Under the pieces are notes generated by a model that saw only the letters and a program-made list of their open reading frames with translations, ran no database searches and was not told the DNA's origin. The translations under genes were made by a program, and so were the position numbers. Source: Cyanobacteriota bacterium (GTDB taxonomy: Bacteria; Cyanobacteriota; Cyanobacteriia; PCC-6307; Cyanobiaceae). Taken from it: a stretch of 20,249 nucleotides of DNA. This document shows positions 14,048 to 20,249 of this stretch, one piece after another (position 1 is the first letter of the stretch; every line of letters starts with the position of its first letter). The DNA lies in contig CANHSW010000009.1 of assembly GCA_947463165.1 (NCBI GenBank), forward strand, positions 1 to 20,249, in the 5' to 3' direction.

Positions 14048-14604
14048 GCTCATCGCTGGCCGACCAGCTGACCGAACAGCTGACTAAACAACTGGCCCAG
14101 TGGGGATTCAGTTGGCGGGGCCTGGGCGATAACCGCCACGGCGAGTGGTGGCTGATCGGCCAGCTGTCGCTGATCGCCCTCCACCTGCTGCCACCCCTGC
14201 CAGCCCCCGCCAGCTTTGGGATCGTCTGGCCGCTGGCTATGCAGCTGCTGGGCTGGAGCACTTTTGCCCTAGGACTGCTGCTGGCGAGCCAGGCGCTGTT
14301 CAATCTCGGGCCCAGCCTCACGCCCCTGCCGCAACCGATGACCGGCGCGGCCCTGATCACCAGCGGCGCCTACGGCCGCTGCCGCCATCCGCTCTATCAG
14401 GCGCTCCTGCTGTGCTCCCTGGGCACAGTGCTGGCCCTGGGCAGCCTGTTGCACCTGGCCCTGCTGCTCGCCCTGGCTGTACTGCTCAGCGGCAAGGCCG
14501 GCCGGGAAGAAAAATGCCTGCTGCAGATCCATGCCAACTACAGCGCCTATCGCGCCACTACCCCGGCGATCATTCCCTGGCTTCCCGGTCTTGATTGGCG
14601 CTGA
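14044..14604 (+). CDS. Membrane methyltransferase-like protein (isoprenylcysteine carboxyl methyltransferase type)
   Basis: A 186-residue integral membrane protein. Hydrophobic helices lie at about residues 38-55, 60-85 and a paired segment near 118-145 (LLLCSLGTVLALGSLLHLALLLALAVLL). The signature is in the loop and C-terminal region: GAALITSGAYGRCRHPLYQALLL, then REEKCLLQIHANYSAYRATTP, the RHPxY and E-E-x-x-L-x-x-x-F/Y-Y patterns of ICMT/PEMT-like methyltransferases, which bind SAM at the membrane face. The start overlaps the upstream stop (ATGA), so it is translated with the TPMT-like gene. Its substrate is unknown. Confidence 0.8.
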   Translation: MSSSLADQLTEQLTKQLAQWGFSWRGLGDNRHGEWWLIGQLSLIALHLLPPLPAPASFGIVWPLAMQLLGWSTFALGLLLASQALFNLGPSLTPLPQPMTGAALITSGAYGRCRHPLYQALLLCSLGTVLALGSLLHLALLLALAVLLSGKAGREEKCLLQIHANYSAYRATTPAIIPWLPGLDWR

Positions 14605-14700
14605 CAGATCAAGCCCATCGGAGCGGCCAGCATCACCTGCCCGGCCGACATCCCTGACGGCGGGCGCCGAGCCGAGAAGTGGAGGCAGCAGGTTTCAGCG

Positions 14701-14812
14701 CTATCGCCCCAGCGGGCTGCCATTGAGCATGCTGGCGCTGAGCAGGCGGGCCTTGAGCCGATTGCCCCTAGAGACCAGTGCCCTGGAAAACAATGCCCTA
14801 GAGACCAGTGCC
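14701..14812 (-). pseudogene. Out-of-frame continuation of the pentapeptide-repeat gene
   Basis: Past the TAG, another minus-strand frame reads in the same five-residue register: ALVSR, ALFSR, ALVSR, GNRLK, ARLLS, ASMLN, GSPLG, then Arg and a TAG at 14701-14703. Small residues (A/G) recur at the same position of each pentad, as in the body of the protein. This suggests that the original C-terminus lay here and was cut off by an indel near 14812-14820, at the edge of the 15-bp repeats. It is inference from pattern only. Confidence 0.4.
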
Positions 14813-14820
14813 CTAGAGCC
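14761..14820. repeat. 15-bp tandem repeats at the 3' end of the pentapeptide gene
   Basis: Four 15-bp units on the minus strand (ggctctagggcactg, gtctctagggcattg, ttttccagggcactg, gtctctaggggcaat) span 14820 down to 14761. The unit equals five codons, as in pentapeptide-repeat DNA. The first unit contains the stop TAG of the pentapeptide gene. In the shifted frame the array reads RALVS RALFS RALVS. Confidence 0.85.
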
Positions 14821-15448
14821 GGGCTCCCTCCATCCAGCAGCCGTCGAGCTGGCAGTCCGCCAGATCACAGCCCCGCAAATCCGCCTGCCGCAGGTCGGCG
14901 TTGCGCAGATCGGTGGCGTAGAGGCAGGCGCCCCGCAGGTCGGCACCGGGCAGCTGCGCTCCCTGCAACAGGGCAAAGCTCAGATCTGCCCCCTGAAAAT
15001 CGGCCCCTCCTAGATCGGTGAGTTGATCGAGACCGCTGCGGAAGTCGGCCTCCACCAGCCGGGCTTCCCGCCAGTGGCTGCCGGCGGCCACCACCCCCCG
15101 CAGGCAGGTGCGATGCAGCAGGGCACCGCTGAAATCAGCGCCCTGGAGCCGGGAGCCGCTGAGATCGGCCCCATGCCAAAAAGAGCGCTTGGCCTGGGCC
15201 CCCGACAGGTCGGCGCCCCAGAGCAGGGCCTGCTGGAAGCCGCAGCTCTCCAGGTTGGCCTGGCGCAGGCTTGCCCGCCCAAAACGCGCCTCTTTGAAGC
15301 AGCTGCCGTGCAGATCGCAGTCGCTGAGATCCAGATCCACGCCGTCGAGATCGCCGAGTCTCAGCCCCGGGAAGTGGCGTCGCCCCTCGGCCAGGGCCGC
15401 CCGCAGCCCCCTCAGGTCGAGGGGCTGATGCCGGTGGTCGCTGGCCAT
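14813..15448 (-). CDS. Pentapeptide-repeat protein
   Basis: A 211-residue protein. After about 30 residues it consists mostly of A(D/N)LxX-like pentapeptides, for example ADLSGSRLQGADFSGALLHR and ADLRNADLRQADLRGCDLAD, which predict a right-handed quadrilateral beta-helix. A region around residues 115-145 (RGVVAAGSHWREARLVEADF, LDQLTDLGG) interrupts the solenoid. There is no signal peptide, so it is probably cytosolic. Biochemical role unknown; such proteins act as structural or protein-binding modules. The ATG shares one base with the ArsR-gene stop (TGATG), so the two are coupled. It stops at TAG 14813, but pentapeptide-like sequence goes on in another frame to 14701, suggesting a 3' frameshift truncation. 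Confidence 0.88.
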   Translation of the reverse strand: MASDHRHQPLDLRGLRAALAEGRRHFPGLRLGDLDGVDLDLSDCDLHGSCFKEARFGRASLRQANLESCGFQQALLWGADLSGAQAKRSFWHGADLSGSRLQGADFSGALLHRTCLRGVVAAGSHWREARLVEADFRSGLDQLTDLGGADFQGADLSFALLQGAQLPGADLRGACLYATDLRNADLRQADLRGCDLADCQLDGCWMEGARL

Positions 15449-15753
15449 CAGAAGATGGCGGCGAGGGCGTCCAGCTGCTGACGGCGCCCGTCGAGCATCA
15501 GCTTTTCGGCCTTGGCCAACAGTTTGAACACGCCCTTGTCGATCACTTCGTAGAACACCAGGCTGCCTTCCGGTTGACGCTTCACCACCCCGGCGATGGT
15601 GAGCATTTTGAGGTGCTTGGAAACCAGGGCCTGGCTGAGGCCGGTCTTCTCCACCACGGCGGTCACGTTCAGGGCGCCGCCGCGCAGGGCCTCCAGCACC
15701 GCCAACCGGTTCGGCTCTGAGAACACTTTCAAATATTCGGCCAGGGCTTCCAT
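15448..15753 (-). CDS. ArsR-family winged-helix transcriptional regulator
   Basis: A 101-residue ArsR/SmtB-type repressor-like protein. LAEYLKVFSEPNRLAVLEAL is the classic first helix block, followed by the winged helix-turn-helix (NVTAVVEKTGLSQALVSKHL) and the wing (GVVKRQPEGSLVFYEVID). It has no cysteine at all and lacks the ELCVCDL metal site, so it is not a thiol- or metal-cysteine sensor of the ArsR/SmtB type. The frame is open well upstream, but only ATG 15753 gives a family-sized protein; the Pro/Ser-rich extension is not credible. It is divergent from the acsF-heme oxygenase-hemN cluster and coupled to the pentapeptide gene, which makes control of that cluster plausible. Confidence 0.88.
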   Translation of the reverse strand: MEALAEYLKVFSEPNRLAVLEALRGGALNVTAVVEKTGLSQALVSKHLKMLTIAGVVKRQPEGSLVFYEVIDKGVFKLLAKAEKLMLDGRRQQLDALAAIF

Positions 15754-16262
15754 GGACGGGGGTATGGACGGGGGCATGGATAGGCAGGGGAAGGGAGAGG
15801 AGCTGGGGCTGGGGCTGGCGGTGCGGCTGGAGCTGCTGGGCAGCGAGGCGAGCGGTGGATGGCGACCGGGCGGCGCGGCTGGGGTGAGGGGGCGAGGAGA
15901 CAAGGCAGAGAGCTGCTTGGCGGCGGGCGGTGAGACAGGCGGTGGGGTGGTGAGGCGGTGAGGCGAGCAGCTGCTTAGCGGAGCGATGGGTGGCGGCTTG
16001 GCGGCGGGCAGCGAGGTAGCGAGGCGACCCGGCGGCAACAGGGGAAGTTTATCGCGATTGAATGGCGCTAGGCCATCTTGAGGATCTCGTATCATCACGA
16101 TGTCGTTATGACACAGAACCGTGGTCCCTTGGTCGACAACTCCCCCTCGTCGCCGCTGGCGCCCTGTCCGCCCGCTGGTCTGGCGTCACCAATGCCTCCC
16201 CTGGCCAGCTCCACCCGCCGCTGAGGCGCCTGTCGCCGAGCAATCCCCTCGCCCTGCCCCCC
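15754..16262. promoter_or_regulatory. Divergent intergenic region between the ArsR-type gene and the cyclase gene
   Basis: 509 bp without a gene. From 15754 to about 16030 the + strand is G-rich and built from imperfect gaggcggtg/gcggcg-type repeats, a low-complexity spacer. The stretch 16050-16120 is less GC-rich and holds TATCAT (16090-16095), a possible -10, and the dyad TGTCGTTATGACA (16101-16113). The remaining 145 bp are C-rich and may be the untranslated leader of the cyclase mRNA. Confidence 0.5.
16096..16113. promoter_or_regulatory. Putative operator upstream of the cyclase gene
   Basis: CACGATGTCGTTAT (16096-16109) matches a second site before the heme oxygenase gene at 11 of 14 positions, with an identical TCGTTAT core. 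The core lies in a dyad, TGTC-gttat-GACA (16101-16113). Being in the divergent region next to the ArsR-type gene, it is a candidate binding site for that regulator. No footprint or known consensus supports this yet. Confidence 0.35.
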
Positions 16263-16997
16263 ATGACCCCTGCCAGCACCCCTATCAGCGCCCCGGCCCA
16301 CGTCCCGGCCAACCCTGCCGCCCCGCACCTGCGGGAAGACCTGCTCGCCCCGCGCTTCTACACCACTGAGATCGACAAGGCCGCCCGCACCTACCTCGAC
16401 CTGGAGCGGCCCGCCTTTGAGGCGATGCTCGGCGAGATGGAGGCCGACTACAACCGCGATCACTTCGATCGCCAGGCGCCCCTGGCTCGGTGGCAGGCCC
16501 TCTCGCCTGGGGAGAAGCAGGCCTACGAGAGCTATCTGGTGCGTTCCTGCGTGTCGGAATTCTCGGGTTTCCTGCTGTTCAAAGAGCTCTCCCGCCGCCT
16601 GTTCCAGGCCCAACGGCAGGAGCTGGGAAGACTGTTCCAATTGATGGCCCGCGATGAGGCCCGCCATGCCGGCTTCCTCAACCGGGCCCTGGTGGCCGAG
16701 GGCATCAGCATCGATCTGCCCAGCCTGAGCAGCAAGCGCCCGGTGATCTGGTTCCCGCTGAGCTGGGTGCTCTATTCAGTATATCTCTCCGAGAAGATCG
16801 GCTACTGGCGCTACATCCTGATCGATCGGCATCTCAAGGCCCATCCAGAGAATGCCTTCGCGCCGCTATTCGATTTCTTTGAACCCTGGTGTCAGGACGA
16901 AAATCGCCACGGCGACATCTTCAATCTGCTGATCCGCTGCTGGCCCCAACTAAAGCGCGGGCTGCGCGGTCGGTTACTCAGTCGCTTCTTTCTGTGA
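16263..16997 (+). CDS. acsF: Mg-protoporphyrin IX monomethyl ester oxidative cyclase, N-terminal two thirds (in-frame stop)
   Basis: The diiron, oxygen-dependent cyclase forms the fifth ring of chlorophyll at the membrane. The product here is 244 residues. The diiron ligands are visible in MARDEARHAGFLNRAL and WCQDENRHGDIFNLLIR, and REDLLAPRFYTTEIDKAART and LVRSCVSEFSGFLLFKELSR are family blocks. The frame stops at TGA 16995-16997 after LLSRFFL, but homology continues in the same frame to 17339. With that part the gene has 359 codons including the final stop, the normal AcsF length. ATG 16263 gives the usual start region. The partnership with heme oxygenase and hemN points to the low-oxygen paralogue (ChlAII). 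As written, the product lacks its C-terminal third and may be inactive. Confidence 0.85.
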   Translation: MTPASTPISAPAHVPANPAAPHLREDLLAPRFYTTEIDKAARTYLDLERPAFEAMLGEMEADYNRDHFDRQAPLARWQALSPGEKQAYESYLVRSCVSEFSGFLLFKELSRRLFQAQRQELGRLFQLMARDEARHAGFLNRALVAEGISIDLPSLSSKRPVIWFPLSWVLYSVYLSEKIGYWRYILIDRHLKAHPENAFAPLFDFFEPWCQDENRHGDIFNLLIRCWPQLKRGLRGRLLSRFFL

Positions 16998-17339
16998 AGC
17001 GTATTCCTCACCCACAGCCTCACGGTGGGTGAGCGGGGAAATTTCTACCGGATTCTCGGCATGGATCCGGCCAGCTTTGATGCGGAAGTGATCCGCCAGA
17101 CCAACCGCACCGCCGGCCGCGCCTTTCCCTGGGTATTCGATCTCGACAGCAGCCGCTACCTGGCCCTGCGCGATCAAATCGTGAATACCTTCCGGGCGAT
17201 TCAGGCCGCAGGAGCCACCGGCCAGGGCCTGCGCAAATTTGGCTTGCAGTTGCGCTTTGGCGCTCTGCTGCTGCGCCAGTTCAGCCAGCCGATGCGGCCG
17301 GGCCACCAGGCCAGCGGCGCTGCCGGAGCCGTGGCATGA
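16998..17339 (+). pseudogene. acsF: C-terminal third of the oxidative cyclase, after an in-frame TGA
   Basis: Directly after TGA 16995-16997 the same frame reads SVFLTHSLTVGERGNFYRIL, then GMDPASFDAEVIRQTNRTAGRAFPW and FDLDSSRYLALRDQIVNTF. This corresponds to the AcsF C-terminal region (SVFATMYLND..., FYASIGLD..., IRKTNENAGRVFP in relatives, from memory). No frameshift is needed; one codon is a stop. A GTG at 17025 could allow a restart but has no good ribosome site. Its TGA overlaps the next ATG (17336) as ATGA. The segment is well preserved, so the nonsense change is recent, read through, or a sequence error. Confidence 0.8.
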
Positions 17340-17614
17340 CCACCTTCCCCCGAGAGCGAATCGACTGCCGCTGGGCCAGCAACTGCAGCGTCCACAGCCG
17401 TATCAACGCCCTGGGGATCGGGGGCGAGAGGCTGGCTGATCGGCATTTCGGGCGGCTGGCAGCCCTGTCAGCCGGCGATTGGGCGGAGCTAGCCGCTGGG
17501 CCGGCTTGGAGCCAGCGGAGGCAGGGAGACAGGCTGCGGAGACGCACTCGGCCCGCTGCCACCGAAACGCGAGACGCAGAGACGCAGAGAAATGGCAACC
17601 GCAAGACTGCATAA
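17336..17614 (+). CDS. Small hypothetical ORF between cyclase and heme oxygenase
   Basis: A 92-codon frame whose ATG overlaps the cyclase stop (ATGA), which favours coupled translation. The first 60 residues (RIDCRWASNCSVHSRINALG, ERLADRHFGRLAALSAGDWA) look protein-like. The last 30 are Arg/Thr-rich low complexity running into a GAGACGCA repeat, so the 3' end may be decayed. No family recognised. It could instead be non-coding spacer. Confidence 0.35.
   Translation: MTTFPRERIDCRWASNCSVHSRINALGIGGERLADRHFGRLAALSAGDWAELAAGPAWSQRRQGDRLRRRTRPAATETRDAETQRNGNRKTA
17571..17592. repeat. Short GAGACGCA direct repeat
   Basis: Two exact 8-bp units (17571-17578, 17579-17586) followed by gagaaa. The pattern resembles dispersed cgcagagacgcagag-type intergenic repeats found in many unrelated bacteria. 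It lies 30 bp before the putative operator and promoter region of the heme oxygenase gene. Confidence 0.5.
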
Positions 17615-17630
17615 CACAGTATCGTTATAC
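17611..17630. promoter_or_regulatory. Putative operator/promoter upstream of heme oxygenase
   Basis: CACAGTATCGTTAT (17615-17628) repeats the motif found before the cyclase gene, with 11 of 14 positions identical. Its core lies in the dyad GTAT-cgtt-ATAC (17619-17630). A wider inverted pair ATAAC (17611-17615)/GTTAT (17624-17628) is also present. The site is 38 bp before the heme oxygenase ATG, so that gene may have its own promoter under the same control. Confidence 0.35.
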
Positions 17631-17667
17631 CGTGAATAAACTCCACTCCCCGATCGCCGCTCTCGCC

Positions 17668-18366
17668 ATGTCCACCCCCGTGACCATCGCTCCCAGCGCT
17701 TCCATCTCAGATCAAGCCTCTGCCGACGACGGGGTTCGCCGCCACGGCCTCGGCCCGCGGTTGCGCCGCCTGCATGGCCGCATCGGCAAGGCGCACCACC
17801 AGGCGGAGGGCATGGCCTTCCCCCGCTCCCTGCTGGCAGGCGAGGCCACGCCACTGCAACTGGCGGCCTTGATCCGCGCCCTGGCCCCCGCCTATGCCCT
17901 GTTGGAGGAACGGGCTCCAGGGCTGGCCTCGGCCCTGGGCGCCCATCAAATCCCCTGGGCGGTCCTGGCCCGGCGCCCGGCACTGGATCGCGATTGCGCC
18001 CGCCTGGCGGCGCTTCCGGCCACGCCCCCCTCGGCGGCCGCCGCCGCCTGGCTGGAGCGGCTGGAAGGCCTGGCCCGGCAAGCCCCCCACCGCTTGCTGG
18101 CCCACGTCTACGTGCGCTACGGCGGCGACCTCTCCGGCGGCCAGCAGCTGGCGCAGCGGGCCGGCGCCATCCTGGCGGCCCACGGTTTGCCCGCTCTCGA
18201 TTTTTGGCTGTTCTCGGCGCCGATCGCCGAACTCAAGCAGCAGCTCCACGACGGCTACGAAGCCCTGGAGCTCTCCGACGCCGAGGAGGAGCAGCTGCTG
18301 GCCGAGAGCGAGGTCGCCTTCCACGCCACCCAAAAGTTGCTGGCGGAACTGGCCCAGCTCAGCTGA
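17668..18366 (+). CDS. ho2: Heme oxygenase
   Basis: A 232-residue soluble enzyme that opens heme to biliverdin, CO and iron with ferredoxin electrons, the first step to phycobilins. The proximal heme-ligand histidine lies in RIGKAHHQAEGMAFPRSLLA. The distal-helix signature is AHVYVRYGGDLSGGQQLAQR (GDLSGG). The C-terminal half keeps the family pattern (FWLFSAPIAELKQQLHDGYE, then ESEVAFHATQKLLAELAQL). It is clearly divergent from the main cyanobacterial HO1, and its place between cyclase and hemN suggests the HO2 type expressed at low oxygen; the symbol rests on this context. ATG 17668 gives normal length; the frame upstream is spacer. Confidence 0.87.
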   Translation: MSTPVTIAPSASISDQASADDGVRRHGLGPRLRRLHGRIGKAHHQAEGMAFPRSLLAGEATPLQLAALIRALAPAYALLEERAPGLASALGAHQIPWAVLARRPALDRDCARLAALPATPPSAAAAAWLERLEGLARQAPHRLLAHVYVRYGGDLSGGQQLAQRAGAILAAHGLPALDFWLFSAPIAELKQQLHDGYEALELSDAEEEQLLAESEVAFHATQKLLAELAQLS

Positions 18367-18391
18367 TCTCCAGCCATTCGTTGCACTGATT

Positions 18392-18473
18392 TTTCGTTGC
18401 CCCGGTATTTCAGTGCCCCCCGGGATTTCGTTGCCCAGGGGTTTAGTTGCCCCGGGGTTTCGCTGCCCTGTTG
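18392..18473. repeat. 16-18 bp tandem repeats between heme oxygenase and hemN
   Basis: Five imperfect units starting tttcgttgcccc: 18392-18407, 18408-18425, 18426-18441, 18442-18457 and 18458-18473. They are followed by a short tctctgtcgct duplication. They fill the 160-bp gap between the heme oxygenase stop and the hemN start and can form GC-rich hairpins, so they may affect read-through into hemN. Confidence 0.8.
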
Positions 18474-18526
18474 TCGTCTCTCTGTCGCTTCTCTGTCGTT
18501 TTCCTTCCAGCTCGCCGCCAAGTTCG

Positions 18527-19879
18527 ATGTCCGTTACCCCCGCCAGCCATCCCGCCTGCCTGGAGCTGCTGCTCAAGTACGACAAGCCCGTTCCCCGCTA
18601 CACCAGCTTCCCCACAGCCGCCGCCTTCCACGACGGCGTAGGCCCTGACGATCTGGCGGCCCAGCTGGGCCGCCCCACCAAGGCGCCGCTGTCGCTCTAC
18701 TTGCACTTGCCCTTCTGCCGTAATGCCTGCTGGTACTGCGGTTGCAACCGCATCACCACCCAGGCCGGCTCAAAAGTGGTGGTCCCCTACCTGGAGGCCC
18801 TGGCCAAGGAGCTGGCTTTGGTGGAGCGGGCGTCGGGCAACAAGCGCAGCCTGGCGCAGCTGCACTGGGGTGGTGGCACCCCCAACTACCTCACCTCGGC
18901 TGAAATGGCCCAGCTGTGGGGCCAAATCGAAAGCCACTTCGATCTGGCCAGCGATCTGGAGGCCTCGATCGAGCTGAATCCAGAATTTCTCAGCCGCGAC
19001 GGGGTTCTCAGCCTGCGGCGGCTGGGCTTCAACCGCGTCAGCTTCGGCATCCAGGACGCCGATCCCGATGTGCAGGCGGCCGTGAACCGGGTGGTGCCAG
19101 CCGAACAGCTGCGGCGGGTGATGGATTGGCTGCGGCAGGCCGACTTCGCCTCGGTGAACGTGGATCTGATCTGCGGTTTGCCCCGCCAGACCCCCGAGCG
19201 CTTCGCCGCCACCCTGGAGCTGGTGCAGCAGCTGCAGCCCGATCGCATCGCCCTGTTCTCCTTCGCCTACCTGCCGGAGCAGTTACCGCTGCAGCGCAAG
19301 ATCGCCGCCGCGGACCTGCCCGACCAGCCCCAGCGGCTGCTGATGTTGCAGGACGCCCAGCGCCGCCTCTCGGCCGGCGGCTACGACGCCATCGGCATGG
19401 ACCACTACGCCCTGCGGGGAGATGCCCTGGCCGAGGCGGCCCGGCAGGGCACCCTGCACCGCAACTTCCAGGGGTACACCACCGGCGGCGAGCTGGAGCT
19501 GCTGGGCGTGGGGGTGTCGGCCATCAGCCAGTTCCCCAATCTGTTCAGCCAGAACCTGCGACAGCTCAAGGCCTACGTACAAGCCCTGGAGGCGGGGCGG
19601 CTGCCGGTGGAGCGGGGCCTGGTGGTGAGCGACCCGGAGCTGCTGGAGCGCCGCTCGATCATCCGCAACTTGATGTGCCGCTTTCAGGAGCAGGTGGATC
19701 CGCTGCGGTTCGCCACCGAGTGGCTCGACCTGCAGGCACTGGAGGCCGATGGGCTGGTGAAACTCCAGGTGGGCGGCGAGATCTTTGTTACCGACCAGGG
19801 CCGTTGGCTGATCCGCACGATCGCCTCGCTGTTCGATCCCGCCCAGCGGCTACGGGCCTCCGGTTCGCGGCTGGTGTGA
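18527..19879 (+). CDS. hemN: Oxygen-independent coproporphyrinogen III dehydrogenase HemN
   Basis: A 450-residue radical-SAM enzyme that makes protoporphyrinogen IX from coproporphyrinogen III without oxygen, feeding heme and chlorophyll under micro-oxic conditions. The cluster motif is YLHLPFCRNACWYCGCNRIT; CxxxCxxC followed by GCN marks true HemN rather than HemW. LHWGGGTPNYL, IELNPEF, RVSFGIQDADPDVQAAVNR, VNVDLICGLPRQTPE and the late HRNFQGYTT and RNLMCRF blocks complete the match. ATG 18527 gives the family's MSVTPASHPACLELLLKYDK-like start and full length; the 211-codon open extension upstream overlaps heme oxygenase in another frame and is not real. Confidence 0.95.
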   Translation: MSVTPASHPACLELLLKYDKPVPRYTSFPTAAAFHDGVGPDDLAAQLGRPTKAPLSLYLHLPFCRNACWYCGCNRITTQAGSKVVVPYLEALAKELALVERASGNKRSLAQLHWGGGTPNYLTSAEMAQLWGQIESHFDLASDLEASIELNPEFLSRDGVLSLRRLGFNRVSFGIQDADPDVQAAVNRVVPAEQLRRVMDWLRQADFASVNVDLICGLPRQTPERFAATLELVQQLQPDRIALFSFAYLPEQLPLQRKIAAADLPDQPQRLLMLQDAQRRLSAGGYDAIGMDHYALRGDALAEAARQGTLHRNFQGYTTGGELELLGVGVSAISQFPNLFSQNLRQLKAYVQALEAGRLPVERGLVVSDPELLERRSIIRNLMCRFQEQVDPLRFATEWLDLQALEADGLVKLQVGGEIFVTDQGRWLIRTIASLFDPAQRLRASGSRLV

Positions 19880-19895
19880 GGCCAGACCAACGAAA

Positions 19896-19924
19896 AAGCC
19901 GCCGATCTCCAGGGACAGGCGGCT
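19896..19924 (-). terminator. Terminator of the cpcB transcript
   Basis: On the minus strand AGCCGCC (19918-19924) and GGCGGCT (19897-19903) form a 7-bp stem with a 14-nt loop, followed by TTTTT (19892-19896 as A's on the + strand). This fits a Rho-independent terminator for minus-strand transcripts coming from cpcB; the stem may also help end hemN transcription from the other side. Confidence 0.8.
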
Positions 19925-19985
19925 GATAAACACAGGCTGCTACTAAGAATTAGCTGCTAGTCAAAACTGGGGGCCCCTCAGAACT

Positions 19986-20015
19986 GGAGCCCTGGATAGT
20001 TCAGCTCAGGGCTCC
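19986..20015. other. 8-bp inverted repeat 3' of cpcB
   Basis: GGAGCCCT (19986-19993) and AGGGCTCC (20008-20015) are perfect complements around a 14-nt loop, 18 bp after the cpcB stop. There is no T tract. It could act as an mRNA-stabilising hairpin ahead of the terminator, common for highly expressed phycobiliprotein transcripts (inference). Confidence 0.5.
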
Positions 20016-20032
20016 GGAGCGGGATGAACTGA

Positions 20033-20249
20033 TCAGCCGACAGCGGCGGCAGCGCGATCGAAGTAGGTGCCGATTTCGCTGATCAGGGCGGAGCAATCGC
20101 CGGGGGTGATGCCGTTGCGATCGTTGGCGATCGAGATAGCGGCATCCTTCATCTTGCGCACGCCTTCAGCCACGGAAGCGCCGGGCACGCCCAGGGCCAG
20201 GTAGGTCTCCCGCAGGCCGTTCAGGCAGCGGTCTTCCAGCACAGAAGCA
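20033..20249 (-). CDS. cpcB: C-phycocyanin beta subunit, C-terminal part
   Basis: The last 71 residues of a phycobiliprotein beta chain, a light-harvesting component of the phycobilisome rod. It reads [20 protein letters not shown] and ends [14 protein letters not shown]. The Cys of [15 protein letters not shown] is the second bilin-attachment site (Cys-153 type), and the Cys of LEDRCLNGL is conserved across beta chains. Both sequence and loop length fit phycocyanin better than phycoerythrin beta, whose equivalent loop is longer. The start is outside the window. Unlike standard cpcBA operons, no cpcA follows: the gene is succeeded by hairpins and a terminator. Confidence 0.93.

Follow-up and report, generated by a model that had tools for sequence, protein, structure and literature searches.

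The acsF2 gene of a Cyanobiaceae bacterium, encoding the low-oxygen form of an oxidative cyclase, is interrupted by a single in-frame TGA, and we consider it likely that this stop is a real and recent nonsense mutation that arose during the loss of an accessory acsF2-(ado2)-ho2-hemN cluster. The gene lies in a stretch of 20,249 nucleotides (the window), which belongs to a draft genome (G000) of 2.27 Mb that is divided among 332 contigs and is 77.7% complete. We read the stop as part of a cluster loss because it is accompanied by features that can be seen directly: the adjoining gene is eroded to a stub, open paralogues including an open acsF1 exist elsewhere in the genome, a genus-mate (G001) has an empty site, and acsF2 is decayed in two other genera. 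More specifically, the TGA at codon 245 would have arisen recently in a dispensable cyclase paralogue, and the neighbouring paralogue of the aldehyde-deformylating oxygenase (ADO) would also have been reduced to a stub through deletion. The ho2 and hemN genes are still open and may still be expressed, and the need for the cluster in the habitat of this organism would be low. Features are listed in Table 1.

Table 1. Coordinates of the features discussed, with the evidence for each.
Feature	Position	Strand	Evidence or remark
Stretch missing from the empty site of G001	14633..19892		Borders accurate to within a few bases
Pentapeptide-repeat protein next to the regulator	14813..15448	-	PF00805
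Divergent ArsR/SmtB-family regulator	15448..16098	-	NF033788, PF01022
Candidate operator in front of acsF2, an imperfect 16-base palindrome	16094..16109	+	ATCACGATGTCGTTAT
acsF2 (acsFII/chlAII-type oxidative cyclase), interrupted	16263..17339	+	TIGR02029 and NF010172 above cut-off when read through
N-terminal piece that would be made, 244 codons	16263..16997	+	Rubrerythrin-type domain (residues 92-223) retained, as are both D-E-x-R-H stretches
In-frame TGA, codon 245, within predicted helix 233-258	16995..16997	+	Translation, model, Trp in relatives
104-codon frame from GTG, earlier restart candidate, judged no gene	17025..17339	+	
Remnant (~52 codons) of the ADO paralogue ado2, other ~175 codons gone	17336..17491	+	blastp to L044 and L034
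ho2-type heme oxygenase, open frame	17668..18366	+	PF01126; in relatives, encoded after the acsF2 region
hemN, oxygen-independent coproporphyrinogen III oxidase, open frame	18527..19879	+	TIGR00538 462.3 bits, cut-off 324.95

Translated as a whole, the acsF2 frame runs for 244 codons to the TGA and for another 113 codons to its terminal TGA (17337-17339), with no second internal stop and no frameshift over its full length. A preliminary description made from the letters of the DNA had already proposed a single frame broken solely at codon 245, with AcsF sequence running on unshifted beyond the break, and both points are borne out by the translation and by a profile search, where the match of the read-through protein to TIGR02029 (AcsF) reaches 345.8 bits (cut-off 192.5). 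Because the matched residues (22-321) span both sides of the TGA, the two flanks belong to one AcsF. Judged by this match, the conserved sequence past the stop is no chance resemblance, and by homology the gene is a Mg-protoporphyrin monomethyl ester oxidative cyclase, in its low-oxygen paralogous form. The read-through protein is 74-83% identical to its counterparts in 52 of 57 named relatives (L034-L090, which include Cyanobium, Synechococcus and Vulcanococcus) and 68-73% identical to the remaining five; no solved structure matched it by sequence at E 0.001. The earlier statement that the gene has exactly the normal length holds, with the reservation that this length falls within a C-terminal tail that varies. 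What the window copy lacks is an uninterrupted frame to the natural AcsF C-terminus.

The stop is not shared by relatives. In tblastn alignments, residue 245 is tryptophan in all 57 named close relatives, in 29 of the 29 unnamed family relatives for which loci were returned (L005-L033) and in 23 of 23 Prochlorococcus-like rows (L091-L113), giving 109 rows altogether from named and unnamed sets that overlap in part; it is leucine in the acsF1 paralogues of both the window genome and G001. A TGA at codon 245 was found in no other genome among these 109 partly overlapping rows, and the window copy therefore carries a mark of a pseudogene, a disabling lesion absent from the orthologues. The comparison with sister genomes suggested in the preliminary description also speaks to natural termination after FFL, which we rejected: every other acsF2 row in these alignments has tryptophan at this residue, with all 57 named relatives reading on, and the acsF1 rows have leucine. 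A conserved TGA site was rejected as well. A search of the family found some AcsF match in 277 of 300 genomes and, among the matches listed, marked several rows as containing one TGA or one TAA. In those of these rows that were fetched, the stop preceded the start, coincided with the natural end or fell outside the region aligned by tblastn. The exceptions were G249 and G262, whose acsF2 copies are broken at positions other than codon 245.

Structural modelling suggests what the stop would do to the enzyme. An AlphaFold2 model of AcsF2 based on a 21-row alignment (mean pLDDT 80.3, pTM 0.80) places residue 245 inside helix 233-258; in the model the TGA removes the remainder of this helix together with helices 260-264, 269-284, 299-319 and 322-340, and the block pLDDT of the helices beyond the stop is mostly 87-97. 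Sixteen columns that are invariant in all 21 AcsF rows, acsF1 included, also fall beyond it. Because translation would end within a helix and the last third of the enzyme would be missing, AcsF2 from the TGA allele is very probably inactive, and a working enzyme is unlikely despite the retained Rubrerythrin-type domain.

The context of the gene corresponds to a described system. A low-oxygen chlAII(acsFII)-ho2-hemN cluster has been reported in Synechocystis 6803, Synechococcus 7002 and Leptolyngbya boryana; according to the review concerned, the aerobic enzymes are ubiquitous, the low-oxygen set is absent from about half of 37 tabulated species, and some strains are named as having the cluster without chlR (PMC4500134). 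As in the ChlR-regulated cluster of Synechocystis 6803 and Synechococcus 7002 described in the same review, the three enzymes of the window stand in the identical order and are paralogous to the constitutive chlAI/ho1/hemF set, and as in Synechococcus 7002 a regulator gene lies just upstream in the opposite direction (PMC4500134). The window cluster differs from the known one in the premature stop in acsF2 and in its adjacent regulator, which is of the ArsR/SmtB family, unlike the MarR-type ChlR of that account; furthermore, whereas Synechococcus 7002 is described there as carrying the desaturase gene desF after hemN, many relatives of the window have an ADO paralogue near acsF2 (PMC4500134).

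The separate constitutive set is present in the window genome. A search for a second intact acsF, proposed in the preliminary description, returned an open acsF1 of 387 codons (G000:C81), and the genome also holds hemF (G000:C299) and a heme oxygenase that is ho1-like by a 34% match only (G000:C259). With these three genes at hand, the organism should survive in air without AcsF2, and it can presumably make chlorophyll with the open acsF1.

Damage extends to the gene next to acsF2. The ado2 remnant matches locus L044 by blastp at E 2e-8 (44% over 52 residues) and locus L034 at 61% over 33 residues; searched alone, it matched no family profile. The ado2 copies of L034 and L042 score 229.6 and 231.1 bits against TIGR04059 (cut-off 222.65), and an ADO-family gene lies within ~2.2 kb of acsF2 in 39 of the 57 named relatives, on the opposite strand in L066 and L069 and as a 46-residue match only in L075. 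The spacing between acsF2 and ho2 is 328 bases in the window compared to ~1.1 kb in L034. A deletion has cut the ado2 of the window to a stub, an event that does not depend on any single base call, although a misassembly could in principle mimic such a deletion. A missing ado2 alone need not mean decay, since 18 of the 57 relatives have no ado2 match (four of these hold ~1 kb or less after acsF2).

Relatives of the window genome show the cluster missing or further decayed. The genus-mate G001 (89% complete) is 86-94% identical to the window contig over the three longest stretches, and its contig C6 joins a match to window positions 14568-14632 directly to a match to 19893-20076; the left-border match covers only ~65 bases, with different sequence beyond. 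G001 has no acsF2, hemN or ho2 of the cluster kind, only paralogues at 43% identity or less. Read from this junction, C6 is an empty site for the whole cluster, including the regulator and the pentapeptide gene. Taken alone, the empty site shows that the cluster is absent, which is compatible with loss as well as with gain. Loss rather than recent gain in the genus is favoured because the cluster is widespread in the family and because another genome, G002, keeps the pentapeptide gene and the regulator beside the same upstream genes as the window. The G002 contig ends at the regulator, so that the lack in this genome of hemN and ho2 of the cluster kind, together with a partial match of acsF1 type only, is uninformative.

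As read from their sequences, the low-oxygen cluster has decayed in at least two other lineages, G249 and G262, which represent two other genera. In G249 (99% complete), acsF2 is stopped at residue 88, carries an insertion after residue 247 and shifts frame near residue 276; the last 79 residues of hemN come next. In G262, acsF2 is present from residue 51 onwards and is stopped at residue 214, where the sequence is garbled; pieces of ado (55 residues) and hemN (45 residues) lie near the contig end, and the edge of contig C38 holds another short fragment resembling acsF2 (91% over 43 residues). Both genomes retain the regulator and carry an open acsF1-type gene. The window looks like an early stage of this decay. 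A single nonsense mutation, a neighbouring deletion, an open paralogue and an empty site in a relative are also what is seen in ordinary bacterial pseudogenes of accessory clusters, from which the window case differs in nothing essential.

Whether the stop is real depends on one base. An error of base calling, assembly or strain mixture, with acsF2 in fact intact, is in our judgement improbable, though it deserves serious weight: the genome is an incomplete draft in many contigs, the remainder of acsF2 is well preserved, and a single wrong base would be enough. Among near-invariant columns, 3 of 194 are changed in acsF2 (rank 9 of 58 rows). The corresponding figures are 3 of 78 for ho2, 5 of 209 for hemN, 1 of 56 for the regulator, 2 of 74 for the pentapeptide gene and, with only 18 rows, 14 of 261 for a gor-like gene. 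The stop aside, odd substitutions are not in excess in acsF2 when compared with ho2 or hemN, and we rejected relaxed selection in this gene. The relaxed constraint that pseudogenes show in their remaining sequence is absent, as expected if the lesion is very recent; the mutation, if real, would therefore be recent, and an unrelaxed acsF2 fits a wrong base call equally well. As a control for sequence errors, we took 739 open reading frames of at least 150 codons from 60 stretches of G001 (750,426 bases) and aligned them at 50% identity or more to 20 stretches of G000, out of 332 contigs, plus the window (368,303 bases in all). The resulting 64 alignments (59,235 bases) contained three in-frame stops on the G000 side and the reverse comparison (65 alignments) none, an imbalance in favour of error. 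Inspected by eye, one of the three stops precedes the conserved start of a glycosyltransferase-like frame, and the other two fall in frames that overlap longer opposite ones (365 and 373 codons). None of the 64 alignments, not all of which are genes, is a clear broken gene, which speaks against error and bounds its rate only loosely. Given the large deletion in the adjoining gene and the decayed copies in relatives, real loss is likely. Among the options that the preliminary description had offered, a recent nonsense mutation in an unneeded low-oxygen paralogue is the one that gains support, from acsF1, the ado2 stub, the empty site and the decay elsewhere.

The remaining options keep a function for the interrupted gene. 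Leaky UGA decoding usually inserts tryptophan, the residue found at position 245 in relatives, and the frame is intact on the far side; UGA might accordingly be read through, either as tryptophan by near-cognate tRNA-Trp or by regulated suppression, so that some full-length AcsF2 is made. We regard such a functional UGA as extremely unlikely. A recent mutation would keep the frame in any case, the TGA is seen in none of the relatives' rows, and TGA also terminates ho2, hemN and acsF2 itself, the ends of ho2 and hemN agreeing with their L042 homologues, which bears out the view of the preliminary description that TGA is not reassigned. In G000 (77.7% complete), SelB (TIGR00475) and tRNA-Sec (RF01852) gave sub-threshold matches only, presumably other GTPases and tRNAs, and the site corresponds to tryptophan rather than to selenocysteine or cysteine; the window bears no sign, at the level of sequence, of TGA reassignment or selenocysteine. 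Regulated read-through, as first suggested, finds no support in these results. A related variant, in which UGA is tolerated and read as tryptophan at a low level, leaving AcsF2 attenuated rather than dead and ho2 and hemN still in use at low oxygen, also appears very unlikely. We give almost no credence to a two-piece enzyme made of the N-terminal 244 residues and a C-terminal piece restarted at GTG 17025. Both frames are present, but the break falls within the modelled helix 233-258, the stop occurs in the window row alone with tryptophan in the relatives, and no purine-rich site was found by eye before the GTG.

With a recent nonsense mutation as the preferred reading, the window would capture a picocyanobacterial cluster for chlorophyll, heme and bilin synthesis at low oxygen at an apparent early step of its loss, relatives showing an empty site and remnants in more advanced decay. 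The break in acsF2 looks like ordinary gene loss, and no mechanism is changed by it. Decay of acsF2 could help to infer which lineages have abandoned low-oxygen habitats; it also cautions that a draft genome containing acsF2 need not possess the function.

The second ADO gene linked to acsF2 (for example L034:4634-5311 and L042:5056-5787) is worth following. In 36 of 39 rows it is 36-44% identical to the canonical ADO of the window genome, which is open at G000:C50, and the five E and H positions tested are kept in 36-38 of the 39. By analogy with DesF and DesC, it may be a low-oxygen isoform of ADO. We found no literature pairing ADO with chlAII or with microoxic conditions and, among the titles listed, none on a broken acsF2 or an acsF2-linked ADO. 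Many relatives also encode, between ado2 and ho2 and on the opposite strand, a protein of ~110-120 residues (for example L034:5308-5673 (-)) that matches nothing in NCBIfam or Pfam and has no convincing tblastn match in the window (best E 0.033).

The regulator scores 68.1 bits against NF033788 (cut-off 55) and 35.3 against PF01022 (cut-off 22), and its MarR_2 score of 24.1 is below the cut-off of 27. Because the family matches begin only near residue 117-129 of the frame, the true start is probably near 15753. An ArsR/SmtB-type regulator adjoins acsF2 in 51 of the 57 named relatives. The palindrome in front of acsF2, a motif derived from the window itself, recurs at the upstream side of the gene with zero to two mismatches in 20 of 57 relatives, compared to none of 57 control stretches taken from within acsF2, which makes it a candidate operator of the ArsR-type regulator. 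The ho2 frame has no NCBIfam match. Between ho2 and hemN, short near-repeats of the type TTGCCCCGGGGTTTCG are visible by eye at 18380-18470.
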